A stretch of 64,000 bases of DNA from Alistipes sp. GTDB taxonomy: Bacteria > Bacteroidota > Bacteroidia > Bacteroidales > Rikenellaceae. This document shows, piece by piece, positions 34,519 through 63,081 of this stretch. The translations under genes and the position numbers were made by a program. Under the pieces are notes generated by a model. The model was not told the DNA's origin, did no database searches, and saw only the letters and a program-made list of their open reading frames with translations. The DNA is taken from NCBI GenBank assembly GCA_017623115.1, contig JAGAPT010000017.1, positions 62,001 to 126,000 of the forward strand, written 5' to 3'. Each line of letters begins with the position of its first letter. Positions within the stretch are counted from its first letter, which is position 1.

Positions 34519-34520
34519 CT

Positions 34521-35894: not shown

Positions 35895-35920
35895 CGTCGG
35901 GTTAATGTATGGTTGGTGAA

Positions 35921-35928: not shown

Positions 35929-35984
35929 CAATTAATCTCGTTAATTTGAAATTTTCCTCTTTTTTTTCTGTATTTTCACCACTC

Positions 35985-36029: not shown

Positions 36030-36062
36030 CTGCAGCTGCATGTTTTGAACTTTTTATTTGGG

Positions 36063-43171: not shown

Positions 43172-43193
43172 GCTATAATTCGTTGTTTAAGGG

Positions 43194-46100
43194 TTAGAAA
43201 CCAATGTTTACCGAAAGCGAATAGGTCTGCGCGATAGGCAGTGCTACGTTACCCGTATTCTCCAATTCAGGATCCTGACCATTGAATCGCTTGCTGCAAA
43301 TCGTGAACGGATTGGTCACGTTGAACGAGCAGCTCAGATTCTGCATGTGCAGTTTACCGGCCAACTTCTTCGGTGCATACCACGTCAGCATCAAATTACG
43401 GCAACGGAAGAAGTCTCCCTTCACGATGCGAGCCGACGAGTAGTTATACATCTCATAGGTGTTCATCTGGCTATTCACACCGGTCGGTACATAGGTGTTA
43501 TAGGACATCTTATCGTCGAAGACAAAGCCCGGAATCGACGTGTAGGCCTCATCACCGGGCTGACGCCAGCGACCGAGCAACTCGACATTGAGGTTCTCGT
43601 GCGGCTGGGGCATCAGAGCAGCACCATTGTAGAGGAAGTTCAGACGACGCACATTGCCAAAGGCATAGGCGAAATTACCCGTCAGCGAGAAGTTCTTATA
43701 GCGGAACGACATGGTCAGACCACCGCTGATCTTCGGGTCTTTCTGTCCCGAGTAAACCAGATAATCCTTCGGATCATCGCTCACCTCCACCTGCGAAGCA
43801 TCACGCGACGTGTGGGCAAACTGGGCATAACCCTTCTCGGGATCGAGGCCCGTGAACTCCCACGAATAGATGGCATTCACCGGACGGCCGTTCTCATAAG
43901 CGTTACCTACCAGATAATCCATATAGGTATACTTCTGGTCGGTGGTCTTCGAGATGTTGTTCGTATTCTTCGACCAGTTGGGCGTAATGGTCCATTGGAA
44001 ATCCTTCGTGCGAATCGGAATGAAGGTGATGGCCAACTCGAAACCGGTGTTCTTCAACGAAGCGCCATTGCGATAGGTGTTCTGCGTACCATACTCGGCA
44101 GCAACCGGCAGGTTGAAGATGATATCCTCGCCTCGCTTCTCGTAGTAGTCGAACGTACCGGCGATGCGACCATCGAACAACGAGAAGTCAACACCCAGGT
44201 TGATCGTATTGGTCTTCTCCCAGCGCAGGTTGGGATAGGGCAGACGGCTGATACCAATCTGGTAGTCGCCCGTCCAGCGGTTGATGGTCGGCGACATATA
44301 CTTCGCCACCACGTTCGGGCCCACCGAGGTCGGCACATTACCCTGACGTCCATACGAAGCGCGGAAACTCAAATCATTAATCACACGCTGATTCTTCATC
44401 CACTCCTCCTCGGCCATGCTCCAACGAGCAGCCACACTCCATACGGGCTGGAACTTGTTGTTCGTGTACTGTCCGAAGCGGTTCGAAGCATCACCACGCA
44501 CGTTGAAGTTGAGCACATAGCGGTTCTTATAGGCATATACCAACGTACCGAAGGCCGAAATCGTATTGCTCTTCTGATCCGTGATTTTCACCGTGTGCTT
44601 GTTGAGCGACGACTGCGAGCCGGCCCAACTGCCGGTCTGACCCGAGGTTGTCGAGTCATACTCGTAACTTACATTCTTACCACGCTCGGGGAAGTAGCCA
44701 TACTCCACAGTCGAGAAACCGTCGTACTGCACCGAACGCGCCTCATAACCGGCCATGACGTTGATGGCGTGATCCTTACCGAAGGTCTTGTTGTACTGCA
44801 ACTGAACACGGGCCGTGTAACTCGTATTGTTCGTATTGTCGTAATTCAGGATACCACCCTGCGGCAACTTCGAAGCCAACTGCTCGGCACTACCCGGAGC
44901 AACGGCTCCATAATCATAGCCACGAATCGTAGCGATATAGTAGGACATCTCGTCGGCCCAACTCTGCTGATTCGAGTTCGAGTAACCAACACCGAGCAAG
45001 ACATTGGCACGCAGACCCGGCAACAGATCGGCATTCAGACCCACGCTGGCATTTACCGAGCGAACCTTCGCCTCGTTGCCCGTGTGGTTGAGCTCATTGA
45101 AGATGTTATATTTGAGCGGATAGTTCGATGTGCCGACACCCGGGAAGGTGGTTACCTGCGTCGTGTAGTACTCATCGGGATGGATGGCACGCGACGTCGA
45201 GGTCGCATAGTCGAACGGATTGACCGTATAGAAACTCTCCGACTTACGATCGGCAAACGAAAGTTTCGTATCCACCTCCAACCAACGGGTCAGGCGGGTC
45301 ATCAGGTTCGACGAGAAGGTGTATTGACGAGCCTCATCGCCCTTTGCCGTACCTTGGCTGTTGTTATAACCGAGCGATACATAGTAACTCGTCTTATCCG
45401 TACCACCCGAGATGCTGGCCGAATAGTCCTGGCTGAACGAGTTCTGGAACAGCAAATCGAACCAGTCGGTATTCATCGTCTCGAGCGAGGCTACGCGAGC
45501 ATCAAACTCACTCTTCGTAATCTTATTGTCATAATAGTCGAACAAGGCACCTTCGTAACCCGTGTTATAGGGCATCGAGCTATACAGGTAACCATCTTCC
45601 ACCACCTCGCGCGATACGCCGATACGCTGCTTCGAGTTCATCAGGTTGTACTGATCGTAACGCGGAGCGGCCGAGAAACCGAGCGACATCGAGTAGTTCA
45701 CCGACGGAGCACCCGTCTTACCACGTTTCGTGGTCACGACAATCACACCATTTGCTGCACGCGTACCATAGATAGCCGTTGCCGAAGCATCCTTCAGGAA
45801 GGTAATCGACTCGATATCATTGGGATTCACACCCGAAATGGCGTTACCAATCAGGCTCAGGCTGGCATTCTCATTCATCTGATCGGTCAGCACATCCGTA
45901 CCACCATAGAGCACGTTGTTCAACTCGTCGTTCGACAGGGGCACGGGATCCTCACGGATGATGCCATCCACTACCCATACCGGAGCGGCATTACCGAAGA
46001 TGGTCGACGAACCACGGACACGGATACGCGGAACAGCATTCGGACTACCCGAGGTCTGCTGCACCGTAACACCCGGCACATGACCCTGAATCATGTTACC

Positions 46101-46841
46101 CAGATTGGTCACATTGGGCATCTGAATCTCCTCCATCATAATCTGCGTCGTAGCACTTGCGCTCAAACGCTTATCGAGTTTCTGATAACCCGTAACCACC
46201 ACATCCTCGATGTCGTTACCGGCATCAGCCAAGGCTACATTGATGCGTGTTTGGGCATCCGAATAGGTAACCTCCTCGGTCTTCTTGCCCACATAGGAGA
46301 AGACAAGCGTACCACCACCGGCCGGCACCGAGATGCTATAACTACCGTCCGAACTCGTTGTCTTGCCAATGGTCATGCCCTTGACATAGACAGCAGCACC
46401 GATCAGCGGCTCTCCCAACTCCTTATCGGTTACCACACCTGAGATGTGCACCTTCGATAACTCTTGTTGCAACATCTGGCGGTTGCTCACGAAGACCGTA
46501 ATCGTGTTTTGGTTGATTTTATAATCCAGACCCGAATCGCGGAACAGCACATCGAGTGCCTCGCGCAACGGGGTGCGATTGAAACTGGCCGTCACACGCT
46601 TACCGGTCAGCAGCATAGCCTGCTCACCATAGAAGAAGGTAAACGGAGCCTTCGAATCAATCGTCTTCAATGCCTTTTCGATGGTCACATTCGACAGCTC
46701 GAGCGTGATAGTCACATCGTCGGGCGATTGTGCAACTGCCTTATCCGCTGCCAACACACAGGCAAGCAGCAAGGCCACCAGTCGGAAGTTGCGATACGAT
46801 GCCGCAACAACCCGTCTCAACAGAACGTAAATTTGGGGCAT
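43194..46841 (-). CDS. SusC/RagA TonB-dependent transporter with STN signalling domain
   Basis: 1215 residues from ATG 46841. After the signal region comes an STN domain (about 48-115: LSNVTIEKALKTIDSKAPF), then a carboxypeptidase-like beta-sandwich (about 130-215: ISGVVTDKELGEPLIGAAV), a plug with TRAANGVIVVTTKRG, and a large beta-barrel ending in Phe. The STN domain signals to the FecR/ECF sigma pair encoded just upstream. It imports oligomers across the outer membrane with TonB energy. The upstream 234 bases carry no TAnnTTTG box but do carry the motif shared with fecR. Confidence 0.95.
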   Translation of the reverse strand: MPQIYVLLRRVVAASYRNFRLVALLLACVLAADKAVAQSPDDVTITLELSNVTIEKALKTIDSKAPFTFFYGEQAMLLTGKRVTASFNRTPLREALDVLFRDSGLDYKINQNTITVFVSNRQMLQQELSKVHISGVVTDKELGEPLIGAAVYVKGMTIGKTTSSDGSYSISVPAGGGTLVFSYVGKKTEEVTYSDAQTRINVALADAGNDIEDVVVTGYQKLDKRLSASATTQIMMEEIQMPNVTNLGNMIQGHVPGVTVQQTSGSPNAVPRIRVRGSSTIFGNAAPVWVVDGIIREDPVPLSNDELNNVLYGGTDVLTDQMNENASLSLIGNAISGVNPNDIESITFLKDASATAIYGTRAANGVIVVTTKRGKTGAPSVNYSMSLGFSAAPRYDQYNLMNSKQRIGVSREVVEDGYLYSSMPYNTGYEGALFDYYDNKITKSEFDARVASLETMNTDWFDLLFQNSFSQDYSASISGGTDKTSYYVSLGYNNSQGTAKGDEARQYTFSSNLMTRLTRWLEVDTKLSFADRKSESFYTVNPFDYATSTSRAIHPDEYYTTQVTTFPGVGTSNYPLKYNIFNELNHTGNEAKVRSVNASVGLNADLLPGLRANVLLGVGYSNSNQQSWADEMSYYIATIRGYDYGAVAPGSAEQLASKLPQGGILNYDNTNNTSYTARVQLQYNKTFGKDHAINVMAGYEARSVQYDGFSTVEYGYFPERGKNVSYEYDSTTSGQTGSWAGSQSSLNKHTVKITDQKSNTISAFGTLVYAYKNRYVLNFNVRGDASNRFGQYTNNKFQPVWSVAARWSMAEEEWMKNQRVINDLSFRASYGRQGNVPTSVGPNVVAKYMSPTINRWTGDYQIGISRLPYPNLRWEKTNTINLGVDFSLFDGRIAGTFDYYEKRGEDIIFNLPVAAEYGTQNTYRNGASLKNTGFELAITFIPIRTKDFQWTITPNWSKNTNNISKTTDQKYTYMDYLVGNAYENGRPVNAIYSWEFTGLDPEKGYAQFAHTSRDASQVEVSDDPKDYLVYSGQKDPKISGGLTMSFRYKNFSLTGNFAYAFGNVRRLNFLYNGAALMPQPHENLNVELLGRWRQPGDEAYTSIPGFVFDDKMSYNTYVPTGVNSQMNTYEMYNYSSARIVKGDFFRCRNLMLTWYAPKKLAGKLHMQNLSCSFNVTNPFTICSKRFNGQDPELENTGNVALPIAQTYSLSVNIGF

Positions 46842-46887
46842 AAGCAATAAATTTAAGGGTTAGTTTTTTTCATGCGTTTCTTATATA

Positions 46888-49322: not shown

Positions 49323-50720
49323 TTACTCATCTCCAAGTTGCGCATGCTCACTATCGGCATGCAACACCACCCGCTCTGCAATCCGACGGATTGTTTGAGC
49401 CGTTTCCGGATTTACACCGCAGCAGGAGACCGTTGCCGTAAATGGCGCACGATAAATCAATAAATAATTGATACAGGCCTTCATATATGCACCCTCACGG
49501 CTTTGATGGCGATGATCGGTATGAAGCAACGAGAGGTTTTGCGCGCGTCCAAGGGTAAACCCCTTCCCGATGGGACTTACCCATATTTCATACTCCGCGA
49601 GCTGTTCGGTAAGTTGTTGAGTGCCACGTTCAAGTAGCTCTTCAAGACGTTCATAGCTGCCATATCCACGATAGTTGCCATACGGGCATCCCCACGTATG
49701 CTCGTAAATGAGTTGACAATTCGGCGAATAACATAACGTAAGATCATTGATCTTCTTACAAGCCTCCAGAATTGCAGCATCGTGAGTGTCAGCGTATTTG
49801 GCAGCATTGGGGGATGTATCCTGCAAAAAGGCATAATCAAACCCGCCCCGTGTTATCGCCTCGATGGTTCGCTCCAGTTCAAGGTGTTCGCTAAACTCCT
49901 GTCCACCCTTTACAGACACCACAATATCGACCTGATGACCCTCGGAACGGGCAATCTCCTTAAACATAAAAGGCGTACCATAAAAATAGGTAAATGAGTT
50001 GCCGACAAAGAGGATTCGTCGCTGATCACGCACATCGGGGGCACCCTTATATCGGAGTAGTTGCAGGCTTACATATTTACTACTACCCGTCAGTTTCACC
50101 TTCCCCTCACCGGCCGCAAGGGTGCGCAAACGCACCTTCACACGGCCGTTCTCGATGGGTTGCATGAGCGTAAACGACTGTGCAAATGTCACAGGATGTG
50201 CTGATTGAAAATATTTGGTATAGAAGGAGTAACGGATGGAAGAATCCTCCTCGGCACTATGCAATGCGGCATCCACGCTATTCCAACGCCCACAATCCCA
50301 ATACTCAAACACCCAATACTTCGGAGCATCGGGCTCTACCGCAGTCATCGTACACATAAAGTCAAACTGCTCACCGGCCATCACATGTGTCACGGGTACC
50401 TCCAAAAGGTAGTAATCCCCCAGACCCATACCTGCAACCGTTGCGCCCTGTTCGTTGGTTGTAAAGAGGGTATTTCCGCTTTCACTCACAACACTGAGTC
50501 GAGCATCACTCCCTTGTAGCGAACAACATCCATAACGGCTCCACTGTGCGGTATCATATCGTTGCGTCTCCATACGCACCGGGAAGCTATCCACAGCTTT
50601 TGCATTGCCCGGCAACGCACCAACCATCGCCGCACCTCCATGTTCCCCACGTTCCCCGGCCATTGCCTGATGGCCACCGATTGCAATCAGCACCGCTACA
50701 TAAAGCAAAAATCTTCTCAT
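49323..50720 (-). CDS. secreted SGNH-hydrolase-like protein (DUF4886 type)
   Basis: 465 residues with signal peptide MRRFLLYVAVLIAIGGHQAMA. Residues about 50-225 form a beta-rich N-terminal region. The C-terminal part has the SGNH/DUF4886 block I ILFVGNSFTYF (Ser near 244), FLQDTSPNA, and the final block HTDHRHQSREGAYMKA in place of the usual DxxH. DUF4886 proteins are predicted esterases of unknown substrate. It lies 21 bases after a small membrane protein gene and is the last gene of the corrinoid operon. Confidence 0.75.
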   Translation of the reverse strand: MRRFLLYVAVLIAIGGHQAMAGERGEHGGAAMVGALPGNAKAVDSFPVRMETQRYDTAQWSRYGCCSLQGSDARLSVVSESGNTLFTTNEQGATVAGMGLGDYYLLEVPVTHVMAGEQFDFMCTMTAVEPDAPKYWVFEYWDCGRWNSVDAALHSAEEDSSIRYSFYTKYFQSAHPVTFAQSFTLMQPIENGRVKVRLRTLAAGEGKVKLTGSSKYVSLQLLRYKGAPDVRDQRRILFVGNSFTYFYGTPFMFKEIARSEGHQVDIVVSVKGGQEFSEHLELERTIEAITRGGFDYAFLQDTSPNAAKYADTHDAAILEACKKINDLTLCYSPNCQLIYEHTWGCPYGNYRGYGSYERLEELLERGTQQLTEQLAEYEIWVSPIGKGFTLGRAQNLSLLHTDHRHQSREGAYMKACINYLLIYRAPFTATVSCCGVNPETAQTIRRIAERVVLHADSEHAQLGDE

Positions 50721-50741: not shown

Positions 50742-51026
50742 CTATTTTATCGAAAGCTGTATCGCCACAGCCGTACCTAAAGCAAAGGGAATACACACGG
50801 CCGGTGGTATCAGGTCATGATCGACGCCACACCCATACAGCACCAACAATATCAAAGCCGGCATCATCAGCCCCACGAAGGCTATTCGCCCCACCTTGCG
50901 ACGATCCATGCGTCGTTTCTGCTCGGCTGAAAGGCCGTTAATCAACTGCGGAAAAGCCCCCGTCAGGCAGGCACAAAGTGCCAAGATACTTGCCGTCAGC
51001 AAATAGGTCATAGGCTCTTTTTTCAC
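50742..51026 (-). CDS. small membrane protein (DUF3784-like)
   Basis: 94 residues from GTG 51026, whose GTGA overlaps the stop of the gene before; ATG 51011 is an alternative. It has three predicted membrane segments and a central basic stretch, INGLSAEQKRRMDRRKVGR, resembling the DUF3784 pattern. No function is known. The overlap indicates translational coupling with the MetH-activation-domain protein. Confidence 0.6.
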   Translation of the reverse strand: MKKEPMTYLLTASILALCACLTGAFPQLINGLSAEQKRRMDRRKVGRIAFVGLMMPALILLVLYGCGVDHDLIPPAVCIPFALGTAVAIQLSIK

Positions 51027-51739
51027 ATCTCGCCCTGCTCACGTGCCACAATCTTGCGATAGATGCAGGTCTTATTCTGGCAAATCACACAGCCATAGGC
51101 ACGACGACGCGCCTTCGTGCCGATACCGATGATACCGCTCACCGATTTAATCGGGTGCATCAGACACGAATTGCTCAACACGATGCCCGTCGGATTCTCC
51201 CCGACAAAGGCAAACAACGCTCGCTGATCGACCAACGGCCAATTGCAGTAGCCCGGGCTGTAGCGATTCGTGATTTTTAATCCGCGGCCGGCTTGTTCCT
51301 CGGCTAGAGCCCGGTGGATACGATCCATGGCGTGCTCCACGGTCATCGACCCGATGGTATCGATGATGTAGGCCTCGAGAAACTCCCCCTGTTCATTCAG
51401 GGCATGTGCCTCATCGGAGAACAATGCACCCGCCGTACACAAAAAGAGAGCCGCCTCTTCGGCCTCTTTCAGGTAGCCACAGACCTGCACCCCCACCCGA
51501 AAATCGTAGCCTTCGACCGTCACGATGCCTGCTGCCGTATCCATGCGCTCGACACGACCGAGCACATAGCCTCCGATCGTCTCCAACGTCGATGCCGCAA
51601 GTTCGGCCAGCCGCTGTTGCATATAGTGATAAGCAGGATGCTCGACATCTCCCTCCATGTGGAGATGCCGAGCAAGCTCATCGAGCGAGGGCAAGACCTC
51701 GCACAAAGGGTAGCGATAGGTATGGAAACACCTCTCCAC
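51023..51739 (-). CDS. free-standing MetH-type (B12-dependent methionine synthase) activation-domain protein
   Basis: 238 residues from GTG 51739, preceded by AGGGG and 4 bases after the methyltransferase stop; the open frame to 51847 runs into that gene. It contains the S-adenosylmethionine-binding motif NRYSPGYCNWP of the MetH reactivation domain and a C-terminal SNSCLMHPIKSVSG with a CxxC...C cluster (CVICQNKTC). Free-standing versions accompany corrinoid methyltransferases. They may reductively methylate cob(II)alamin back to methylcobalamin, but that role here is inferred. Confidence 0.85.
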   Translation of the reverse strand: MERCFHTYRYPLCEVLPSLDELARHLHMEGDVEHPAYHYMQQRLAELAASTLETIGGYVLGRVERMDTAAGIVTVEGYDFRVGVQVCGYLKEAEEAALFLCTAGALFSDEAHALNEQGEFLEAYIIDTIGSMTVEHAMDRIHRALAEEQAGRGLKITNRYSPGYCNWPLVDQRALFAFVGENPTGIVLSNSCLMHPIKSVSGIIGIGTKARRRAYGCVICQNKTCIYRKIVAREQGEM

Positions 51740-51743
51740 TCCC

Positions 51744-52736
51744 CTATTTATTATAGGCCTCAACCGCACCAAAGAAGGCCTCAAGATTGGCCTCGGGCAC
51801 AGCAGGAGGCAGGTCACAACCCGACGAGATGACAAAGTTCTTGGCACCCCGTGTCTTCTCCAGCAGATCGGTCGTAGCAGCGGCCACCTGTTCGGGGGTT
51901 CCCTGCTTGAAAATGCCCACCGGATCCAGATTACCCATCACAAGCATATGCTCGGGCACCTCGGTCAGAGCCTGCGGGATATCAACCAGGTTGCCGAAGT
52001 GCATTGCAGCAGCCCCCGTTTCGACCATGGCACCGGTACACTGTCCCGTATTACCGCAGTTGTGCAGAATCACCGTGAAGTCATCATCCTGCACGGCATC
52101 GACAATCTGCTTCACATAGGGTGTAGCATACATCTGGTGGTCTTCGTTCGAAAGCAGACCGGCAGCCGGCTCGGCCATCACCACGCCGGCGACACCCGTT
52201 GCCTTCAAGGCCTTGCAATAGTCAATGAGGAAGGCCGTACACTTATCGAGCAGGGCCATAATGACATCCGGCTCGATGTAGATGGCCACCATAATCTCAC
52301 TCATGTCGTACAGACGACCGGCCAACGAGAAGGGGCCGATACAGCCTGCCAACACCGGCCGGTCGGTGATATGTTCCGCAGCCAAGCGATTGGCTTTAAG
52401 GTATTCGGGCACACGACCGGCATCGAGCGATGGCACCTGCAACGCCTCCACCGAGGCTGCATCCGACACCAAGCGTTCGGTAACGGTCGGAATCTCCTCC
52501 TCGGGAATCAGAATCTTTGCACCGAAGGCCTCGGCCTCGACCGTCAAGTCCATAATCACCGTGCAGGCAGCCGAAGGATAACGCTCGGCCAGCGCCTTGA
52601 TGGCAGCGAAGTGCACTTCGCCATCGGTTACGGCTTCACGCACCGTCTTACCCACATACTCGATACCCGGGTGGGTCATAATCGGGAGGGCAATGCGCTT
52701 CTCCGATGCCAACACCTCCTCAATCCACTTTTTCAT
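51744..52736 (-). CDS. MtaA/CmuA-type (UroD superfamily) corrinoid methyltransferase
   Basis: 330 residues of the UroD-like barrel. The zinc ligands of MtaA-type enzymes are in place: LHNCGN (His225, Cys227) and SSGCDLPP (Cys307). It moves a methyl group between a corrinoid protein and a thiol. Coenzyme M is not known in Bacteroidota, so the acceptor is more likely another thiol or a folate route. It lies 12 bases after the corrinoid protein gene. No MtaB- or MttB-type partner is adjacent. Confidence 0.9.
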   Translation of the reverse strand: MKKWIEEVLASEKRIALPIMTHPGIEYVGKTVREAVTDGEVHFAAIKALAERYPSAACTVIMDLTVEAEAFGAKILIPEEEIPTVTERLVSDAASVEALQVPSLDAGRVPEYLKANRLAAEHITDRPVLAGCIGPFSLAGRLYDMSEIMVAIYIEPDVIMALLDKCTAFLIDYCKALKATGVAGVVMAEPAAGLLSNEDHQMYATPYVKQIVDAVQDDDFTVILHNCGNTGQCTGAMVETGAAAMHFGNLVDIPQALTEVPEHMLVMGNLDPVGIFKQGTPEQVAAATTDLLEKTRGAKNFVISSGCDLPPAVPEANLEAFFGAVEAYNK

Positions 52737-52748
52737 GGGTGTAATGGC

Positions 52749-53420
52749 TTATGCGTTCAGGAAACTCTCCAGAATCTTGATGTCGTCCTGCGGGTCGGCA
52801 GCATAGCCGTCGGCACCAATCTCGGCAGCAAACTCGGCCGACACAGGAGCACCTCCGACGATGAACTTCGTCTCGGGATACTTCTCATGCACCTGGTCGA
52901 TGATGGTCTTCATGTTGGTCATCGTCGTCGTCAACAGCGCCGACAGACCTACATAGGCATTCGGATGCTCATCGAGGGCAGCAATAAATTTCTCGGCCGA
53001 AGCATCCACTCCCAGATCGACAACCTCCCAGCCGGCACCCTCGACCATCATGCAGACGAGGTTCTTGCCGATGTCGTGCAGGTCGCCAAAGACCGTACCG
53101 ATGATAAACGTACCCTTACGCTGCACCTCACCCGACGAGAAATAGGGCTTGATATAGGTCAAAGCGGCATTCATCGCCTTGGCCGAGAGCAACATCTGTG
53201 GCACAAAAACCTTTCCCTCGGTGAATTTCTGCCCCACACAAGTCATGGCCGGAATCAACGCCTCGTCCATAATCTGCGACGGAGCAATACCGGCTGCAAG
53301 AGCCTGCTGAGTCAATTCCTGGGCACCATCCTCGCCACGCATCTGAGGCGGATAGGGCGACGCTGCATTGATTTTTCCGAACTCAACGCAGGTAAACAAT
53401 TTTTGCAATAATTCGTTCAT
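52749..53420 (-). CDS. corrinoid (methylcobalamin-carrier) protein, MtaC/MtbC type
   Basis: 223 residues. An N-terminal helical cap (about 1-95) is followed by the B12-binding Rossmann domain with DLHDIG (His115 as lower cobalt ligand), GLSALLTT (Ser160) and VGGAP (about 188-192), the three MetH-like motifs. It carries a methyl group on cobalt between two methyltransferases. First gene of a five-gene leftward operon with its own promoter, divergent from the GH141-like gene. Confidence 0.93.
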   Translation of the reverse strand: MNELLQKLFTCVEFGKINAASPYPPQMRGEDGAQELTQQALAAGIAPSQIMDEALIPAMTCVGQKFTEGKVFVPQMLLSAKAMNAALTYIKPYFSSGEVQRKGTFIIGTVFGDLHDIGKNLVCMMVEGAGWEVVDLGVDASAEKFIAALDEHPNAYVGLSALLTTTMTNMKTIIDQVHEKYPETKFIVGGAPVSAEFAAEIGADGYAADPQDDIKILESFLNA

Positions 53421-53460
53421 AGTTTATTTGGGTATTGTTGTTTGCTACACTAAAAACATG

Positions 53461-53492
53461 CGAATATACAAAATTTTGCAGAGTTTTTCAAA
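53461..53492 (-). promoter_or_regulatory. promoter of the corrinoid operon
   Basis: On the minus strand, TTTG (53492-53489), 20 bases, TATATTCG (53468-53461); the -7 box has one mismatch. About 40 bases before the ATG. Confidence 0.6.
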
Positions 53493-53538
53493 CATTTTTG
53501 CCGAAAGGTTATCGCATTTGATTTTTCAATCCCCTGCC

Positions 53539-53570
53539 GTTGTTTTTTCACACGCAAATCGTTATATTTG
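53539..53570 (+). promoter_or_regulatory. promoter of the GH141-like/GH31 operon
   Basis: GTTG (53539-53542), 20 bases, TATATTTG (53563-53570), 26 bases before ATG 53597. Divergent from the corrinoid operon promoter; the two -33 boxes are about 46 bases apart. Confidence 0.7.
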
Positions 53571-53596
53571 TTCGATTTTAGCCTAACCTAACCGCT

Positions 53597-55375
53597 ATGA
53601 CCCGAAAACTCGCCCTCTTACTCCTGTTCGTGGCCGCACCATTGGTGGTATCGGCAGGAACGATTTATGTGTCGCCCAAGGGCAATGACCAGGCTGATGG
53701 TTCGCAACAAAGTCCGCTCCGCACGCCTCACGCAGCCTTGAAAATGGCGCGCGAATGGCGTCGTATCGGTGACCCTCGTATCGAGGGGGGCATTGAGATT
53801 CGTTTTCAGGAGGGCATCTACACGCTCGACCGTCCGCTCTACATCCGACCCGAAGACAGCGGAACGGCCGATTCGCCAACCACGCTGCGTGCCGAAGAGG
53901 GACAAGAGGTTGTCTTCAGCGGAGGCACTCCGCTGGCTTCGTTCCGCCGCGCAGACGGCTATTGGGTTGCCGAGGCACCCAGGATACATGGGCGGCCACT
54001 CCTCGTGCGCGAGTTATGGGGTGGCACGCTGCGCCGAGCCACGCAATTCGGAGCCGAAGAGATGGCCCGCATGATTGCCTTTGACCCTGCGACCGAAAGC
54101 ATCACCATTCCCCGCCCCGCCATCGAGGGGTTAGAACAGGCCGAGGGGCTCGAAATGTTGGTGCATCAACGCTGGGCGGTGGCCATTCTGCGCATCAAAG
54201 CCATCCGTTACGAGGGGGAGCAAGCCGTCGTCACGTTCCTCAACCCGGAGAGCTATTTGGAGTTTGCCCACCCGTGGCCCCAACCGGTCATTGACGGCGA
54301 GCGTGGCAACTCCTCCTTCATGCTCATGAACGCCAAAGCACTCCTCGATGAAAATGACGAGTGGTGGCAGGACTATGCTACAGGGCGCATCTATACGCTT
54401 CGTAAACCTCGGACAACCATCTATGCGCCCCATCTGGAGCGATTGATGACTATCGAGGGAGCCCGACAGAAAGCCGTACAGCATCTTCGGTTCGAAGGCA
54501 TTCGCTTTGCCCATACGGCCTGGAATCGACCCATGGAGCAAGGTCATGTTACCTTGCAGGGCGGCTTCGCCTTTATCGACGGCTATAAACTCTACGAGAA
54601 GGAGGGCTTTGCGTGGGATCCCAACCTCGAAAATCAGGCCTGGCTCGAACGCCCCGAGGCGGCTATCTCGGTGCGCAATGCCTCGCACATCACCTTCGAG
54701 GGGTGTTCGTTCCACGAATTGGGGGCAACGGGTCTCGATTTGGTCTCCAACGTACACCACACCTCGGTACGCGGTTGTACGTTCCAGCGTATTGGCGGCA
54801 CAGCGTTGTTGGCCGGCTCATTCGGGGAGGGAGCAACCGAAGTTCACATTCCGTTCGATCGAATTGGCGACCCAACGGATTTCTGTTCTCACCTGCACAT
54901 CGAGGCCAATCGTATCTACGACGTTACCTGCACCGATTGGGGTGCGGTGGCCATCGGATGTGGCTATGTTCGTGACACGGAGATTGTCGACAACCACATC
55001 AATAAGGTCAACTATTCGGGTATCTGCGTCGGCTGGGGATGGACCAAGCACGACACGGGCATGCACCGCAACCGCATTGCCCGCAATCGGGTCGAGAACT
55101 ACGCCCGTCAACTCTATGATGCCGGTGGCATCTACACCCTCTCGAATCAGCCCGGTTCGGTCATCGAGCAAAACATCGTTTCGAAGCCCTACCCGGCACC
55201 TTATGCCACCAACCATCGCGGATTCTGCATCTACCTCGATGCGGCTACCGACGGCTACACGATTCGCAACAATTGGTTGGAGGTCGAAGCGTCCATCGGC
55301 TTCAACAACCCCGGACCGGCCGTGCGCTTCGAGGGTACAAATGGACCGGAAACGCCACTTCCGCAACAGCAATAA
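53597..55375 (+). CDS. right-handed beta-helix glycosidase (GH141-like), secreted
   Basis: 592 residues with signal peptide MTRKLALLLLFVAAPLVVSA. The start IYVSPKGNDQADGS and the later blocks HVTLQGGFAFIDGYKL, FEGCSFHELGATGLDL, VNYSGICVGWGWT and DAGGIYTLSNQPGSVIEQN match the parallel beta-helix proteins grouped with GH141. Characterised GH141 members act on fucose in rhamnogalacturonan II or on xylan. GH141 is my best assignment, but related beta-helix families share these motifs. First gene of the rightward operon, 29 bases before GH31. Confidence 0.75.
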   Translation: MTRKLALLLLFVAAPLVVSAGTIYVSPKGNDQADGSQQSPLRTPHAALKMAREWRRIGDPRIEGGIEIRFQEGIYTLDRPLYIRPEDSGTADSPTTLRAEEGQEVVFSGGTPLASFRRADGYWVAEAPRIHGRPLLVRELWGGTLRRATQFGAEEMARMIAFDPATESITIPRPAIEGLEQAEGLEMLVHQRWAVAILRIKAIRYEGEQAVVTFLNPESYLEFAHPWPQPVIDGERGNSSFMLMNAKALLDENDEWWQDYATGRIYTLRKPRTTIYAPHLERLMTIEGARQKAVQHLRFEGIRFAHTAWNRPMEQGHVTLQGGFAFIDGYKLYEKEGFAWDPNLENQAWLERPEAAISVRNASHITFEGCSFHELGATGLDLVSNVHHTSVRGCTFQRIGGTALLAGSFGEGATEVHIPFDRIGDPTDFCSHLHIEANRIYDVTCTDWGAVAIGCGYVRDTEIVDNHINKVNYSGICVGWGWTKHDTGMHRNRIARNRVENYARQLYDAGGIYTLSNQPGSVIEQNIVSKPYPAPYATNHRGFCIYLDAATDGYTIRNNWLEVEASIGFNNPGPAVRFEGTNGPETPLPQQQ

Positions 55376-55404
55376 CAAAAGAACTTAATTACCTATATAC
55401 ACAC

Positions 55405-57660
55405 GTGAAACAGACTAATTATCATCTTTTCGATTTCCTCGACTTCGATCCCGATTTACAGGTAAACGAGTCGTTGTGGAAAGCCTATAAACCCACGGCC
55501 GTCGAGGTGGTGGAGGGTGAGATTCACATCACCGTTCCCTTCCAGAAACAGCAGTTGGCAGCCGACATGGCGGCCGATACGACCACAGCTCCGGTCAACC
55601 ATACGTTGCGCCTGCGCGCCTATGGCGATCAAATCCTGCGCCTGCAGCTCTCGGCCGAGGATATCGCCCCTCGTGAAACCTCCGAGATGCTCGATATCGC
55701 TCCTACGTTGCAGCGTGAGCCCCTGACGGCAAACCTGCTCGACAACGTATGGCAGTTCCACGACACGAAGGGCGTGTTGCGTGGCGAGTTGAATCTCCGC
55801 GAGGCCGAAATCGACTTTTGGAGCGACCTGCAACCGGCCCCCCAATCGACCATCGACCTGACGCTCTATCCCGATGGAAAACATTCGAAGCCGGTGCGTC
55901 TGTCGGCCTATGATCACTTCTCGCCCCCGCGTTACGATGCCCTTCCGTTAGCCTACTGCGAGAAGGAGGGCAAACCCGAACGGGCTACACTCTCGTTCGA
56001 GTGCAAGGCTGACGAGTGCTTTGTCGGCACGGGTGAGCGTTTCACGAAGATGGACCTCGCCGGCCACACCTTCCAACTCAAGAATCAGGATGGGCAGGGC
56101 GTCAACAACCGCCGTGCCTACAAGAATATTCCGTTCTACCTCTCGAGCCGCATGTATGGTGTCTTCTACCACACCAGCGACTACTGCAAACTCTCGCTGG
56201 CCGACCATTCGACCCGTTCGGTGCAGTTCCTGGCCGATGGTGCCGAGGTCGATGCCTTCCTCATCGGCGGTGCCACCCCCGAGCGTATCCTCTACAACTA
56301 CCGCTCGCTGACCGGCTTCCCGACCCTGCCTCCGCTGTGGAGTTTCGGTATCTGGATGAGCCGCATGACCTATTTCAGTGCCGATGAGGTAGAGGATATT
56401 TGCGCCCGTCTGCGTCGGGAGCACTATCCCTGCGATGTCATTCACCTCGACACGGGTTGGTTCCGCACCGACTGGCTCTGCGAATGGAAATTCAACCCCG
56501 AGCGTTTCCCCGATCCGAAGGGATTCCTCACCCGTTTGAAAGATGATGGTTACCGTGTATCGCTCTGGCAGCTGCCCTATGTAGCGCAGGGTGCTGAGCA
56601 GATTGACGAGGCGAAAGCCAACCGCTATATCGCCCCGCTGACCAAGGAGCAGGAGCGCAGCGAGGGGTCGAATTTCTCGACACTGGACTATGCCGGCACC
56701 ATCGACTTTACCTATCCGAAGGCTACGGAGTGGTACAAGGGTTTGCTGAAGGAGTTGCTCGATATGGGCGTGGTCTGCATCAAGACCGACTTTGGCGAAA
56801 ATATCCACATGGATGCCGATTACTACGGCATGAAGCCCGAACAACTCAACAACCTCTATGCGTTACTCTACCAAAAAGCCGCTTACGAGATTACGAAGGA
56901 GGTAACGGGCGACGGCATCGTCTGGGCGCGTGCAGCCTGGGCCGGATGCCAGCGTTATCCGCTCCATTGGGGTGGCGACTCGGCCTCGACATGGGACGGC
57001 ATGGCCGGCTCGATTAAGGGAGGTCTGCACTTCGGCTTGTCGGGATTCGGCTTCTGGAGCCACGATGTACCGGGGTTCCATTCGCTGCCCAACTTCATGA
57101 ACTCGCCGCTCGACGAGAAGGTCTATGTACGCTGGTCGCAGTTCGGTGTCTTTACCTCGCACATGCGCTACCACGGCTCGTTCAAGCGTGAGCCTTGGCA
57201 CTACCCCGCCATCGCCCCCATCGTGAAGCGTTGGTGGAAATTGCGCTATCGCCTGATGCCCTACATCATGGAGGAGGCCAAGGTGGCTACCGAAACGGGC
57301 TATCCGATGTTACGAGCCCTGATGATGCACCACCCCGAAGACCGCACCGTATGGCACATCGACGACGAGTATTACTTCGGCTCGCAGTTCCTCGTTGCCC
57401 CCGTGATGAACGACGAGGGGGTGCGCGATATCTATCTACCCGAGGGTCAATGGGTCGATTTCTTCACGGGCGAACGCCATGCGGGAGGTCGCTGGTTACG
57501 CGATGTCGAAGTACCGCTTGAGCGCATGCCCGTCTTTGTACGCGAGGGGGCACAAATCGCTCTCTACCCTGATGAGGAGGTCGAGTGCACCGACCAGATG
57601 GATCTTGCGAAGGCCGAAATCCTCACCATCGACAACACATTCCACGGATTTAAGTTCTAA
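55405..57660 (+). CDS. GH31 alpha-xylosidase
   Basis: 751 residues from GTG 55405; the open frame from 55273 runs back into the preceding gene. No signal peptide, so probably cytoplasmic. The nucleophile motif is KTDFGEN (Asp462), the form typical of YicI-type alpha-xylosidases rather than alpha-glucosidases. FGIWMSRMTYFSADEV and WGGDSAS are further GH31 marks. It would release alpha-linked xylose from an imported oligosaccharide. It lies 7 bases before the UroD-like gene. Confidence 0.93.
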   Translation: MKQTNYHLFDFLDFDPDLQVNESLWKAYKPTAVEVVEGEIHITVPFQKQQLAADMAADTTTAPVNHTLRLRAYGDQILRLQLSAEDIAPRETSEMLDIAPTLQREPLTANLLDNVWQFHDTKGVLRGELNLREAEIDFWSDLQPAPQSTIDLTLYPDGKHSKPVRLSAYDHFSPPRYDALPLAYCEKEGKPERATLSFECKADECFVGTGERFTKMDLAGHTFQLKNQDGQGVNNRRAYKNIPFYLSSRMYGVFYHTSDYCKLSLADHSTRSVQFLADGAEVDAFLIGGATPERILYNYRSLTGFPTLPPLWSFGIWMSRMTYFSADEVEDICARLRREHYPCDVIHLDTGWFRTDWLCEWKFNPERFPDPKGFLTRLKDDGYRVSLWQLPYVAQGAEQIDEAKANRYIAPLTKEQERSEGSNFSTLDYAGTIDFTYPKATEWYKGLLKELLDMGVVCIKTDFGENIHMDADYYGMKPEQLNNLYALLYQKAAYEITKEVTGDGIVWARAAWAGCQRYPLHWGGDSASTWDGMAGSIKGGLHFGLSGFGFWSHDVPGFHSLPNFMNSPLDEKVYVRWSQFGVFTSHMRYHGSFKREPWHYPAIAPIVKRWWKLRYRLMPYIMEEAKVATETGYPMLRALMMHHPEDRTVWHIDDEYYFGSQFLVAPVMNDEGVRDIYLPEGQWVDFFTGERHAGGRWLRDVEVPLERMPVFVREGAQIALYPDEEVECTDQMDLAKAEILTIDNTFHGFKF

Positions 57661-57667
57661 CCACGCT

Positions 57668-58732
57668 ATGAAAACTTGGAAAACAAATTGGGAGGAGTCG
57701 AAGCAGCACTACCTCGATTGGTGGCAACACAAAGGGTGCGTCGTCACGATGTGGGAGCATTTCCAGCAGGGGGTAACCCCGCATGCGCCGATTGCGGCAC
57801 CTGCGCCCGCTGCGGATTGGAACCAGCGTTGGTTTGACCCCGCATGGCGTTCAGCCGAACTCGACCACTATGTGGCTCATAGTTCGCTCAAAGCCGATAT
57901 GATTCCCGTGGCCAACACCCAGCTCGGGCCGGGCTCATTGGCGGCCATTCTGGGCGGTCGTCTCGAGGGAGGCCCCGACACGATCTGGATTCATCCGGCC
58001 GATGCGGTCGGTGAGGAGATTCGCTTCGACCCCGAGAACGAGGCTTACAAACTCCACAAGGCTCTGCTCAAAGCCTGCAAAGAGCGTGCGCAAGGCAACT
58101 ATTATGTCGGCATGCCCGACCTGATGGAGGGCCTCGACGTGCTGGCTGCCATTCGTGGCACGGACAACGTACTGCTCGACACGATGATTAACCCCGAGTT
58201 GCTTGATGCGCAATTGCAGCAGGTAAACGACATCTACTTCAAGGTCTACGACGAGTTGTACGACATCGTGCGCGAGGATGACGGCATGGCCTTCTGTTAC
58301 TTCTCGATTTGGGGACCGGGCCGTGTCAGCAAACTGCAGAGCGACATCTCCATCATGATTTCGGAGGAGGATTATCGTCGCTTCGTACAGCCCTACATCC
58401 GTCAGCAGTGCCAAAAATTGGATTACACGCTCTACCACCTCGATGGCGTGGGTGCCATTCGACACCTCGATGCCCTGCTCGAGATTGAGGAGCTCGACGC
58501 CATCCAATGGACCCCCGGTGTGGGTGAGCCGCAGGGGGGCGACAAGAAGTGGTACGACCTCTATCGTCGCATCAAGGCCGGCGGGAAATCGATTGAAGCC
58601 AACTGGATTACCCTCGACGAGCTGGAGCCCCTGCTGGACAATGTCGGTGCCGAGGGTATGCTCCTCTCGATGGATTTCCACCACGAAGCGGAGGTCGATA
58701 AGGCACTAAAGATTGTTGAACGCTATCGCTAA
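57668..58732 (+). CDS. UroD/MtaA-superfamily protein in a sugar operon (putative methyltransferase)
   Basis: 354 residues from ATG 57668. Conserved blocks are FSIWGPGRVSKLQSDIS, ISEEDYRRFVQPYI, LYHLDGVGAIRHLDALL (near 255-270) and IQWTPGVGEP. The YHLDG block aligns with the HxDG of UroD-like methyltransferases. The HxC...C zinc set of MtaA is not present, so the metal ligands, if any, differ. It is not a haem-synthesis UroD. Its place between alpha-xylosidase (7 bases) and symporter (39 bases) indicates a sugar-related substrate. Activity is unproven. Confidence 0.75.
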   Translation: MKTWKTNWEESKQHYLDWWQHKGCVVTMWEHFQQGVTPHAPIAAPAPAADWNQRWFDPAWRSAELDHYVAHSSLKADMIPVANTQLGPGSLAAILGGRLEGGPDTIWIHPADAVGEEIRFDPENEAYKLHKALLKACKERAQGNYYVGMPDLMEGLDVLAAIRGTDNVLLDTMINPELLDAQLQQVNDIYFKVYDELYDIVREDDGMAFCYFSIWGPGRVSKLQSDISIMISEEDYRRFVQPYIRQQCQKLDYTLYHLDGVGAIRHLDALLEIEELDAIQWTPGVGEPQGGDKKWYDLYRRIKAGGKSIEANWITLDELEPLLDNVGAEGMLLSMDFHHEAEVDKALKIVERYR

Positions 58733-58771
58733 CTAAACTACCAACCTGGACTCACAACCTAACCAACACCT

Positions 58772-60355
58772 ATGCTACACCTTTTACAAATCAGTTCCGA
58801 GCAATTACACCTGCTCGACTGGTCGATTTTGGTCGGCTACTTCATCGTGCTGCTGGCCATCGGCGTCTGGGCCAGCACAAAACGCCAGAAGGGAAGTTCG
58901 CTCTTCTTGGCCGAGAACTCGTTGCGCTGGCATCACATCGGTTTCTCGATGTGGGGCACGAACGTAGGCCCCTCGATGCTCATCGCATCGGCATCAGCCG
59001 GTTTTACGACCGGTATCGTATCGGGTAACTTCGCCTGGTATGCCTTCATCTTCATCTGCCTGCTGGCCTTTGTCTTTGCCCCACGCTATCTGGGAGCCAA
59101 GGTCTCGACCCTGCCCGAATTTATGGGTAAACGCTTCGGACAATCGACCCGCAACATCCTGGCGTGGTACACGATGGTGACGATTCTCATCTCGTGGCTG
59201 GCCCTCACGCTCTTTGCCGGCGGCGTGCTGATTCGTCAGGTCTTCGATGTTCCGATGTGGCAATCGGCCCTCATCCTGCTGGCTATCTCGGCCTTCTTCA
59301 CGATGCTGGGAGGATTGAAGGCTGTGGCCTACACGAATGTCTACCAGATGTTGCTTCTGATTTTCGTCTCGGCCACCATCGTCATCGTCGGTCTCTACAA
59401 GGTTGGCGGTGTAGATGGGCTCATTGCCGCTACGCCCGAAGATTATTGGGTGCTCTTCCGCCCCAATTCGGATGTCGATTTCCCCTGGTTGCCGATTATC
59501 TTGGGCTACCCGATTTCGGGTGTCTGGTTCTGGTGTACCGACCAATCGATGGTGCAACCTGTCTTGGCAGCTCGCAGTCTGAAAGAGGGACAACTCGGCA
59601 CAAACTTCACGGGGTGGCTCAAAATCCTTGATGTACCCCTCTACATCCTGCCCGGTATCATCTGCTTTGCCCTCTACCCCACGTTGGCAAATCCCGACGA
59701 GGCCTATATGACGATGGTCAAGAACCTCTTCCCGATTGGTATGGTCGGATTGGTATTGGCCGTACTGACTGCAGCCCTTGTCAGCACCATCGGCTCGGCA
59801 CTCAATGCCTTGAGTACGGTCTTCACGATGGACATCTATGTCAAGAAGTTTAACCCCAAGGCCTCGAACCGCGAGATTATCCGCATGGGGCAACTCGTTA
59901 CGGTAGTCGGTGCCATCATCTCGGTATTGATTTGCATCGCCATCGACTCAATCAAGGGGCTCAATCTTTTCAATGTCTTCCAGTCGGTTTTGGGCTTCAT
60001 CGCACCCCCGATGACCGCCGTCTTCCTCATGGGTGTCTTCTGGAAACGTGCCACGAAGCGTGCTGCCAACCTGGCCCTGACGCTCGGAACGCTCATCAGC
60101 ATCGGCACGGGTGTCATGTACCTCTGGGCATGGCCCGAGGGGTTGGCCAAGCCGCACTTCATGCTGCTCTCGTTCTACCTCTGCGTATTTATCCTCATAG
60201 CCATGACACTCATCTCGCTCTTCGACCACTCAAAGCCCGAGAGCGGCACAACAACCTTCGACAAGGTGGAGCGTGCACATACCGGTCGTATGGTAGCCGG
60301 TCTGTGGATTGCCCTGATTGTGGTCATGGTAGGCCTTTATATCTTCTTTAACTAA
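58772..60355 (+). CDS. sodium:solute symporter (SSS family), sugar type
   Basis: 527 residues with about 14 membrane segments. Family marks: SLRWHHIGFSMWGTNVGPS, SWLALTLFAGGVLI, YTNVYQMLLLIFVSA and GSALNALSTVFTMD. It is related to SGLT/YidK-type sugar transporters and would import a mono- or oligosaccharide with Na+. It follows the UroD-like gene and precedes GH105 (22 bases), so it probably delivers the substrate for GH31 and the UroD-like protein. Confidence 0.92.
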   Translation: MLHLLQISSEQLHLLDWSILVGYFIVLLAIGVWASTKRQKGSSLFLAENSLRWHHIGFSMWGTNVGPSMLIASASAGFTTGIVSGNFAWYAFIFICLLAFVFAPRYLGAKVSTLPEFMGKRFGQSTRNILAWYTMVTILISWLALTLFAGGVLIRQVFDVPMWQSALILLAISAFFTMLGGLKAVAYTNVYQMLLLIFVSATIVIVGLYKVGGVDGLIAATPEDYWVLFRPNSDVDFPWLPIILGYPISGVWFWCTDQSMVQPVLAARSLKEGQLGTNFTGWLKILDVPLYILPGIICFALYPTLANPDEAYMTMVKNLFPIGMVGLVLAVLTAALVSTIGSALNALSTVFTMDIYVKKFNPKASNREIIRMGQLVTVVGAIISVLICIAIDSIKGLNLFNVFQSVLGFIAPPMTAVFLMGVFWKRATKRAANLALTLGTLISIGTGVMYLWAWPEGLAKPHFMLLSFYLCVFILIAMTLISLFDHSKPESGTTTFDKVERAHTGRMVAGLWIALIVVMVGLYIFFN

Positions 60356-60377: not shown

Positions 60378-61730
60378 ATGAAACGATTGACACTTACCAC
60401 CCTGCTGGCTGCTTTGGCATTGACCGCCTGCACAACACAGCCTGCCGAGCAACCGCTCTCCCAACAGATGGTCGAGGCGCACGGTCTCGGCGATTTCTAC
60501 TGCAACCGCCATTACCAAACACAACTGTCTGAAACCGGCTGGGACTATGTATCGGGCTTGGTAGCAGGCGCTGTACTCAAAACATGGGTACTCTATCCCG
60601 AGCAGCAGGCCTACTACGATGCCGTCAAGGCCTTTGCCGACTTCAGCCTCAACGAGGATGGCACCTTCATCAAAACCCTCAAAGGGGGCAATGCTCTGCG
60701 TCCGAGTAACATCGACGACCTGGCTGCCGGCAACATCTATTTTGCCCTCTACCGTGAGGAGCTGCGCAAGGGAAATACCACCGATGCCGAGCGTTATCGT
60801 GCCGCTGCCACGATGATTCGCAACAAACTCAAATATGACCACAGCCGTATTCCCGAGGGGATGCCCGGAGCCGGTGGCTTCTACCACAAGGCGGTCTATC
60901 CGAATCAGATGTGGCTCGATGGTCTCTACATGGGCTCGCCCGTCTACGCCATGTGGCAAGCCGCGTTTGGCGCGGAAAACGAGGCCGAGAATCTGGAAAG
61001 CTGGAACGACATCGCCCACCAATTCAAGACCATTCATCAATACACCTACGATGCCGAGAAGCAACTCAACTACCACGCTTGGTCGGCCGAGCCGGAGAAC
61101 GCCGACTCGTTCTGGGCACGTCGTGAAGAGCCTTTCAAAGGGTGCAGTCCCGAGTTCTGGGCACGAGGCATGGGCTGGTACTTTGCCGCCTTGGTCGATG
61201 TGCTGGAGGTAATGCCCAAGGAGCATGCCGACTACGCTGCGATGGTTGCTATCTACAACGAGGTGGCTGCCGGTCTGGCTCGTTGGCAGGATAAGGAGTC
61301 GGGCGTATGGTATCAGTTGTTGCAGTATGGTGCCGATGTAACGGCTGACGGTATCGGCGACACGGTACAAGGCCAGGTGTACAATGTCGGCACGCAGCCG
61401 AACTACCTGGAGGCTTCGGCATCGTGTATCTTCACCTACGCCTACCTGAAAGGTCTGCGTTTAGGCCTGCTAGATGAGGCAACCTATGCCCCCATAGCCG
61501 AGAAGGCCTATCAAGGTATTCTCGACACCTTCATCACCGAGCAGGAGGGTAAGATGGCCATTGTGCAGACCTGCGCCTCGGCCGGTTTGGGCCCCGCCAA
61601 GAACCTCTCACGCACAGGTACCATCAACTACTACCTGGCCGGCAAAGATGTCGGCATCACGCAAAATGAGGGCAAAGCCGTCGGCACCTTCATCCTCGCC
61701 TCGCTCGAATACGAGATGCGCAAGATGTAA
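60378..61730 (+). CDS. GH105 family unsaturated uronyl hydrolase, lipoprotein
   Basis: 450 residues; lipoprotein signal MKRLTLTTLLAALALTAC. Barrel marks are GWDYVSGLVAGAVLKTW, QMWLDGLYMGSPVYAMW and WARGMGWYFAALVDVL. It would remove an unsaturated uronate from a lyase product. The divergence from the paralog at 26904 suggests a different substrate, fitting the alpha-xylosidase and GH141-like partners. Last gene of the operon, ending at a bidirectional terminator. Confidence 0.9.
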   Translation: MKRLTLTTLLAALALTACTTQPAEQPLSQQMVEAHGLGDFYCNRHYQTQLSETGWDYVSGLVAGAVLKTWVLYPEQQAYYDAVKAFADFSLNEDGTFIKTLKGGNALRPSNIDDLAAGNIYFALYREELRKGNTTDAERYRAAATMIRNKLKYDHSRIPEGMPGAGGFYHKAVYPNQMWLDGLYMGSPVYAMWQAAFGAENEAENLESWNDIAHQFKTIHQYTYDAEKQLNYHAWSAEPENADSFWARREEPFKGCSPEFWARGMGWYFAALVDVLEVMPKEHADYAAMVAIYNEVAAGLARWQDKESGVWYQLLQYGADVTADGIGDTVQGQVYNVGTQPNYLEASASCIFTYAYLKGLRLGLLDEATYAPIAEKAYQGILDTFITEQEGKMAIVQTCASAGLGPAKNLSRTGTINYYLAGKDVGITQNEGKAVGTFILASLEYEMRKM

Positions 61731-61750
61731 CAAATACCATACGATTACGA

Positions 61751-61783
61751 ACAAAGAAGCAGCCTTCGGGGCTGCTTCTTTGT
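61751..61783. terminator. bidirectional terminator
   Basis: A 14-bp stem (61751-61764 with 61770-61783) with loop TTCGG. On both strands it ends in a TTCTTTGT run. It overlaps the stop codon of the ligase gene. Confidence 0.88.
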
Positions 61784-63081
61784 TAATGGCGCAAATCGAC
61801 AAACTTGACCACCTTGCGGCTCATCGGTGGCATCTGCTGCCGAGCAATCAGTTCGACCGGCTCGAAGCGAATATCGGGGGCTACACGCACCTTCGAGCGG
61901 AAAATATCCTTAATCTGCTTGATAAAGGCCTCCGAATGGTTGCGACTGCCAATCTTAATTTGAATCTGATCCGTCCCGAGGTCGTTCGTGAAGACCTCGA
62001 CCAGATAGTTCTCCACCTCGGGGATATTATCCAAAATATCGAACAGCGCAGGCGGATAGAGCGTCGTACCTTTGAACTTAATCATCTGCCCCTTACGGCC
62101 GATGACCGAACTGAGACGAGCCGTCTGACGACCACAACGACATGGCTCGGAGTAACGGATACAGATATCGCCGGTCTTAAAGCGCAGCAACGGCATTCCC
62201 TCCACGCCAAGCGTCGTAATGGTCACCTCGCCGGGGGTACCATCCGCTACGGGCTGATGCTGTTCGTCGAGCAACTCCACGATAATCAAATCGGCCGGGA
62301 TATGCCCACCGCAATGGTACTCACACTCGGTAAACGAGGCCTGCATCTCGGTCGAAGCATAGGTCGAAAAGAGTTCGAGCGAGGGCCAGCGACGGACAAT
62401 ACGTTGCCCCAGCGTTGTCAGTTCGCCATCGGGTGTACGCAGTGCCTCGCCAATACAAATGGCGCGACGCAACGAACTTGCATTGCAATCAAAGCCGTGT
62501 GCATCGGCAAAATCAATCAGTTTCATCAGGAACGAGGGAACCACCATACAAGCGGTCGATTCGACACGTCGTATCGTATCCCACTGCAACTCGGGAATGC
62601 CATTCCCGACACGCACGACACCACACCCCAATTCACGGGCTCCGAGGAAGTAGGCCAAACCGGCCATGAAACGACGGTCGATAGTCGTCATGAGTTGCAT
62701 CACATCCTCGCGCGTGCAACCGGCCATCGTAAAGGAGCAGGCCTCGTTGTAGGCCAGGCGTTGCAGGTCGCCCTCGGTCAGGGCAAAGGTAACCGGCTCT
62801 CCGAGTGTACCCGAGGTCGTCACATAATCGATGATTTCACTTCTCGGCACGCATATAAAGTCGGTGTTATGTTGCTGCAACTCCCGCTTGGTAGTTACAG
62901 GCAATCGTTGCAAATCGGCCAGCGTACAAATCGACTGTGGGTCAATCTGCGCTTCCGCAAACATACGTTGATAGAAGGGCGATTTGGTAGTTAGATAGGC
63001 AACCGTTTCGCGCAAACGTTCCTCCTGAAAGGCCTGAATCTCGGCAGGCGAGAGTGCATGCAAATGACTATTTCGTATCAT
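61783..63081 (-). CDS. phenylacetate-CoA ligase-like (PaaK family) AMP-forming enzyme
   Basis: 432 residues. The adenylation domain has YVTTSGTLGEPVTF (the P-loop-like motif), STYASTEMQASF, and the C-terminal FKTGDICIRY and GRKGQMIKFKGTTLYP. It activates an aryl or acyl acid as AMP ester, then CoA or carrier thioester. The ATG overlaps the preceding C45 gene by 14 bases. In Bacteroidota such pairs occur in clusters that make modified lipids; the acid cannot be predicted here. Confidence 0.85.
   Translation of the reverse strand: MIRNSHLHALSPAEIQAFQEERLRETVAYLTTKSPFYQRMFAEAQIDPQSICTLADLQRLPVTTKRELQQHNTDFICVPRSEIIDYVTTSGTLGEPVTFALTEGDLQRLAYNEACSFTMAGCTREDVMQLMTTIDRRFMAGLAYFLGARELGCGVVRVGNGIPELQWDTIRRVESTACMVVPSFLMKLIDFADAHGFDCNASSLRRAICIGEALRTPDGELTTLGQRIVRRWPSLELFSTYASTEMQASFTECEYHCGGHIPADLIIVELLDEQHQPVADGTPGEVTITTLGVEGMPLLRFKTGDICIRYSEPCRCGRQTARLSSVIGRKGQMIKFKGTTLYPPALFDILDNIPEVENYLVEVFTNDLGTDQIQIKIGSRNHSEAFIKQIKDIFRSKVRVAPDIRFEPVELIARQQMPPMSRKVVKFVDLRH

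Follow-up and report, generated by a model that had tools for sequence, protein, structure and literature searches.

The 64,000-nt stretch of DNA analyzed here from Alistipes sp. (the window, whose coordinates are used throughout) carries a corrinoid methyl-transfer operon next to a sugar operon. Is the protein encoded at 57668, among the sugar genes, the enzyme that joins the two by passing the methyl group of an O-methylated sugar to the corrinoid protein?

The minus-strand operon contains three genes, and all their open reading frames are intact. They encode a corrinoid methyl-carrier protein (52749..53420; PF02607 and PF02310, motif DLHDIG), an MtaA/CmuA-like protein predicted to be the MT-II (51744..52736; PF01208, 203 bits) and a 238-aa protein of the MetH activation-domain type, the likely activator of the corrinoid protein (51023..51739; PF02965, 26.5 bits with a cut-off of 25; sequence match to 1j6r at 2.4e-6). 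The open frame of the latter reaches 51847, and its true start is probably the GTG at 51739. A gap of 176 bp (53421..53596), presumed to hold both promoters, separates this operon from the divergent plus-strand one. There we found a GH141 enzyme with a signal-peptide-like start (53597..55375; PF21231), a GH31 enzyme with no obvious signal peptide (55405..57660; PF01055, 289 bits), the 57668 protein, which is the predicted methyl-sugar:corrinoid methyltransferase or MT-I (57668..58732), a sodium:solute symporter predicted to import a disaccharide (58772..60355; PF00474, 184 bits) and, last of the run, a GH88-type hydrolase (60378..61730; PF07470). Judged by eye, the start of GH31 is probably the GTG at 55405 instead of 55273. 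An earlier, sequence-only reading of this DNA had described the three corrinoid-system genes as one operon lying back to back with the sugar operon, and both statements agree with the gene positions and domains. It was also right about GH31, 57668 and the symporter, but it omitted GH141, the first gene of the sugar operon.

On the other side of the corrinoid operon lies a pectin-type cluster (26904-40682) with GH88, pectinesterase, GH28 and DUF4861 domains; SusC/SusD-like genes were recognized by eye on that same side at 41690-46847. Between this cluster and the corrinoid operon, 49323-50720 encodes a 465-aa protein with no match in Pfam or NCBIfam. Downstream of the sugar operon, a flexirubin-type acyl-CoA ligase, FlxY (61783-63081; NF053551, 687 bits with a cut-off of 520), begins a pigment-like cluster.

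We compared the window and 60 fetched loci against a single reference protein set. This sample is uneven, with 29 loci obtained via the 57668 search, 20 picked by the corrinoid protein and 11 by MT-I or GH31, and ten of its loci come from close Rikenellaceae. MT-I was present at an identity of at least 50% in 36 loci, the window included. It was accompanied by the symporter in 32 of them, which adjoins it in most loci, by GH31 in 30, the corrinoid protein in 26, GH141 in 25, the activator in 17, MT-II in 16 and a homocysteine domain in 12. At least one corrinoid-system gene was found in 29/36. Seven loci, some of them short contigs, had none in the locus DNA (L009, L027, L029, L030, L032, L097 and L099), and their genomes encode corrinoid proteins elsewhere. 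The gene set is repeated in several families, and three loci carry it as a single-strand run: corrinoid protein, MT-II, activator, GH141, GH31, MT-I and symporter in L026; a PF02574 protein, corrinoid protein, activator, GH141, GH31, MT-I and symporter in L028; and GH31, MT-I, symporter, corrinoid protein, MT-II, activator and GH141 in L089. The GH88-type hydrolase is perhaps outside the core gene set, since tblastn found it in only 2/29 loci (L008 and L009).

We then asked where the methyl group might end up. The 51744 protein scores 146 bits against TIGR01463, below the curated cut-off of 235. Its H225, C227 and C307 (HNC...C) align with the HIC...C of MtaA (PDB 4ay7) and are invariant in 7/7 aligned sequences, so that the HxC...C ligands proposed from the sequence do match MtaA. 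In MtaA these H-x-C...C residues bind zinc. Retention of all three by the predicted MT-II points to a thiol as the methyl acceptor.

Other loci carry a homocysteine methyltransferase domain (PF02574) instead of, or together with, MT-II. Among the 47 loci with a corrinoid protein, 14 have MT-II only, 14 have PF02574 only, 15 have neither and four have both (L019, L020, L025 and L036). These four weaken the case for MT-II and PF02574 strictly excluding each other, and their MT-II may serve another thiol. Homocysteine methyltransferases of the PF02574 family are expected to have NC and GGCC motifs, and both were found in L028 and L019. In L019 and L023, chains of about 1000 residues are ordered MT-I, PF02574, PF02607, PF02310, and neither a folate (PF00809) nor an activation (PF02965) domain was found in these fusions at E 0.001. 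Several observations speak against an acceptor other than homocysteine: PF02574 is flanked by MT-I and the corrinoid domain in these chains, a stand-alone PF02574 protein occupies the MT-II position in L028 and another is part of the L095 operon, and the gene set yielded no pterin-binding domain. Such an acceptor, either tetrahydrofolate or another thiol, would leave the demethylation as proposed and is compatible with our main reading. In its favor, the window carries an MtaA-like protein rather than PF02574, four loci hold both MT-II types, and, in the available text of PMC10418091, tetrahydrofolate takes the methyl group in known corrinoid O-demethylases and coenzyme M is used by MtaA. We regard this alternative as possible, though somewhat unlikely, and homocysteine as the fairly probable final acceptor, judging from these domain arrangements; the sequence-only reading had proposed no final acceptor.

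SPGYC and a C-terminal CxxCx4C occur in 17/17 aligned activator sequences, and we speculate that the CxxCx4C holds a metal or an Fe-S cluster. No Ram/RACE-type activator was found in the gene cluster, which has the MetH-activation-type protein in its stead.

Next, we considered the substrate. The GH141 enzyme of the window matches BT_1002 (PDB 5mqp) with 471 bits. In the available text of the review PMC10154630, 2-O-methyl-D-xylose-a1,3-L-fucose is the product that BT_1002 cuts from chain A of rhamnogalacturonan II, with D523 and D564 being critical, and excerpts of a second paper give the same product and list xylanase and endo-fucanase as other GH141 activities (PMC12786026). Both critical Asp residues are present in the window enzyme as D508 and D548 (with an inferred index offset of 5). 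For GH31, the nearest model is that of an alpha-xylosidase, NF007940 (495 bits, below the curated cut-off of 606), and the nearest PDB entry is 5f7c, deposited as an alpha-glucosidase (1280 bits). Among the neighboring sugar genes, a fucose isomerase adjoins L019, GH95 and GH2 enzymes adjoin L030, and an apiosidase adjoins L033, a distant relative; the window's own genome encodes xylose and fucose isomerases. The GH141 likeness, GH31, the neighboring sugar genes and the isomerases together make 2-O-methyl-xylose our best guess for the substrate of 57668, and a likely one. The sequence-only reading had offered this sugar as an example, a choice that the BT_1002-like neighbor favors.

The chemistry could be unchanged and the substrate different: 2-O-methyl-fucose, 4-O-methyl-glucuronate or similar, or the disaccharide before its cleavage by GH31. 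The first of these is also part of rhamnogalacturonan II according to excerpts of PMC12282258, and the specificity of GH31 is not fixed by its sequence. Two Anaerolineae loci have a GH31 of only 29-30% beside MT-I, and the distant relatives L033-L035 gave no GH31 match in the locus DNA. Nevertheless, this alternative appears improbable to us in view of the BT_1002-kind GH141 and the GH31 orthologue that accompany MT-I in 25/36 and 30/36 loci, respectively, and of the 2-O-methyl-xylose-fucose that BT_1002 produces. We thus retain 2-O-methyl-xylose in what follows.

The 57668 protein itself belongs to a large family, with 3628 homologues at E 0.001, and the nearest named relatives in our tree come from Alistipes and other Rikenellaceae genomes. 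A plasmid collection gave one match only, which covers 58% of the query at 27% identity. At E 0.001, 57668 matched no family in either Pfam or NCBIfam, the Pfam URO-D family included, and ten relatives searched at E 5 gave just two chance-like matches (best 0.017), none of which names URO-D. PDB sequences yielded a single chance-like match (E 0.8) with the protein alone and none with a profile. A profile of 19 relatives matched a profile of six UroD-like proteins with a probability of 91% over 98 columns, ending at an H-x-D/C-G motif; a narrower profile comparison between the 57668 group and MT-II alone gave 1.8% and did not support kinship. The H-x-D (H257, D259) is present in 57668 and 18 aligned relatives, where MT-II has H-x-C. 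The UroD kinship of 57668 is therefore tentative, drawing on this one remote profile match. The placement of 57668 in the UroD/MtaA superfamily, made in the sequence-only reading, therefore agrees with that match and finds no support in Pfam, NCBIfam, the PDB sequence search or the narrower profile.

To connect 57668 with the corrinoid operon, we relied on fusions and on co-occurrence. Corrinoid-binding domains are present in 88 of the best 120 of the 3628 homologues, PF02574 in 5 and no Pfam domain in 27; these were counted by hand, and many rows are near copies. In a tree of 69 rows, all 28 fused ones cluster together. Four of the fused rows (P0082, P0101, P0131 and P0137) and L021 come from truncated proteins or contigs and carry the label of their visible part. 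This grouping argues against repeated independent origins and suggests a single fusion event with later variation.

A 57668 orthologue (E < 1e-70) is encoded in 10/393 genomes of the order Bacteroidales, including the window's own, and seven further genomes have weak matches only. A non-MetH corrinoid protein (E <= 1e-40) is found in 63/393 genomes (both sets were counted by hand). A wide spread of the 57668 family among organisms without corrinoid proteins, which the sequence-only reading had named as evidence against itself, is not what we observed: all ten orthologue genomes encode a non-MetH corrinoid protein, compared with 53/383 of the others (p 6e-9, with kinship ignored). Three of these ten genomes have the corrinoid protein in fused form, three encode it within 5 kb of the orthologue on one contig and four encode it elsewhere. 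PF02310 proteins are present in 13/13 genomes of chosen related loci, which is weak evidence because 12/14 control genomes have such proteins too. In another genus, MT-I occurs in 8/27 genomes; its reading frames there span 570-1033 residues, which means that they are fused or truncated.

GH31 follows MT-I as well. Its orthologue is found in 8/10 MT-I genomes versus 2/383 others. Of the two GH31 genomes without MT-I, one is represented by a contig that stops just past GH31 (L091), and the other is a real exception, with GH31 and the symporter present and the MT-I orthologue absent (L098, genome G221). Conversely, G124 has MT-I and lacks the GH31 orthologue. Within one genus of 15 genomes, nine have MT-I, and GH31 occurs in eight, all within those nine (8/9 versus 0/6).

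Genome co-occurrence and the neighborhoods of the 36 loci led us to reject chance adjacency of the two operons. The corrinoid operon could in principle handle methyl-sulfur or methyl-selenium compounds on its own and adjoin the sugar operon by accident, with 57668 doing something else, given that its MtaA-like protein is similar to the Mlp/SCMT proteins tied to sulfur and selenium (PMC10418091, excerpts) and that 53/383 genomes have a corrinoid protein and no 57668 orthologue, but the fusions, the single-strand runs (L026, L028 and L089) and the 10/10 co-occurrence make this highly improbable. The earlier claim that 57668 is an MT-I for an O-methylated sugar is therefore supported by the corrinoid fusions and by co-occurrence, with the activity itself being a prediction. 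We consider a function of 57668 in corrinoid-linked sugar demethylation very likely.

Our model is that genes 51023-60355 constitute one pathway, with homocysteine as the likely acceptor and 57668 as the MT-I for 2-O-methyl-D-xylose, a role that we find quite likely from comparative genomics. GH141 would act in the periplasm, cutting 2-O-methyl-xylose-a1,3-fucose out of side chain A of rhamnogalacturonan II. This disaccharide would enter the cell through the symporter and be split by GH31 in the cytoplasm. MT-I would then transfer the methyl group of 2-O-methyl-D-xylose to the Co(I) of the 52749 corrinoid protein, leaving D-xylose, and the zinc-type MT-II (51744) would pass it on to a thiol, most likely homocysteine, giving methionine. 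The 51023 protein would reactivate oxidised cobalt.

How does this compare with known systems? Corrinoid demethylation by an MT-I of the UroD superfamily is described for aryl ethers and haloalkanes in the available text of PMC13222342. According to the same text, MtvB, OdmB, VdmB and CdmBCA likewise combine MT-I, corrinoid protein, MT-II and activator; their MT-I is in or near that superfamily. The MT-II of these O-demethylase and chloromethane systems, of the CdmA or MtoA/MtvA type, has a link to tetrahydrofolate, whereas here the MT-II is MtaA-like or PF02574. Their substrates are aryl ethers or haloalkanes, unlike the sugar predicted for the window, and the known O-demethylases have a Ram/RACE-type activator in contrast to the MetH-activation-type protein of the window's cluster. 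CdmB (9rui) is weakly matched by the 51744 protein only, 57668 being too distant for a PDB sequence match. The 51744 protein has the H-x-C...C residues in common with methanogen MtaA, and MtaA-like clusters are also known outside methanogens, tied to sulfur and selenium (PMC10418091, excerpts). The type 1 mlp clusters include a corrinoid protein, as at the window locus, but they have several Mlps, a Ram/RACE activator and a sulfur/selenium connection (same excerpts), where the window has a MetH-activation-type protein and a sugar operon.

MetH shares with the system proposed here its homocysteine and corrinoid modules and a MetH-like activation protein. It has a folate module, and the methyl-sugar module would fill that place in the L019 and L023 fusions. 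Demethylation is likewise coupled to methionine synthesis by MtgBCDE of marine bacteria; in excerpts of PMC12478193 this system acts on glycine betaine via a pfam06253 protein and a pterin-binding protein, unlike the one here. The rhamnogalacturonan II pathway of Bacteroides thetaiotaomicron cuts every linkage except one, according to excerpts of PMC12282258. Its BT_1002 is a GH141 of the same kind as that of the window, with both critical Asp in common. The uncut linkage is reportedly 2-O-methyl-xylose-fucose. No demethylation step was found in the parts of the descriptions of this pathway that were available, and no description of corrinoid demethylation of sugars was found in the open-access literature among the matches listed. 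Thus, the chemistry is of a known kind, and what appears new is the substrate, along with the MT-I family and the sugar-homocysteine-corrinoid fusion.

In aerobes, P450 enzymes demethylate sugars. If our model is true, the pathway would be their oxygen-free counterpart and would explain the fate of a methylated sugar from a very complex plant polysaccharide. It would also link fiber breakdown in animal guts to methionine and B12 supply, and give a function to the large family of 57668 homologues. A bolder version, for which we see the balance as even, is that of a folate-free methionine synthase fed by wall sugars. The methyl group of 2-O-methyl-xylose from rhamnogalacturonan II would pass via the corrinoid to homocysteine, in some species within one chain of methyl-sugar, homocysteine and corrinoid modules, and the single stand-alone corrinoid protein of the window's genome would also serve further sugar-linked MT-I proteins.

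That genome encodes three more UroD-like proteins on other contigs, beside sugar-type transporters (L066:5036-6103 and L065:7316-10004, by eye). One of them has relatives (53-56%) in L085 and L079, beside or near the corrinoid protein, and in L099, downstream of MT-I; L079 also carries, near the corrinoid protein, a 65% relative of a second one. These extra proteins may act as additional MT-I enzymes that draw on the corrinoid operon of the window. In L074, L084 and L088, which lack MT-I, the neighbors of the corrinoid protein are UroD-like proteins, a PF02574-like protein and a protein of 540 aa that matches MT-II weakly; these are probably other corrinoid systems. Finally, in a Phocaeicola locus (L016:1103-5217), the MT-I operon adjoins cobalamin assembly genes (CobD/CbiB, CobS, CobT-type and CobU).
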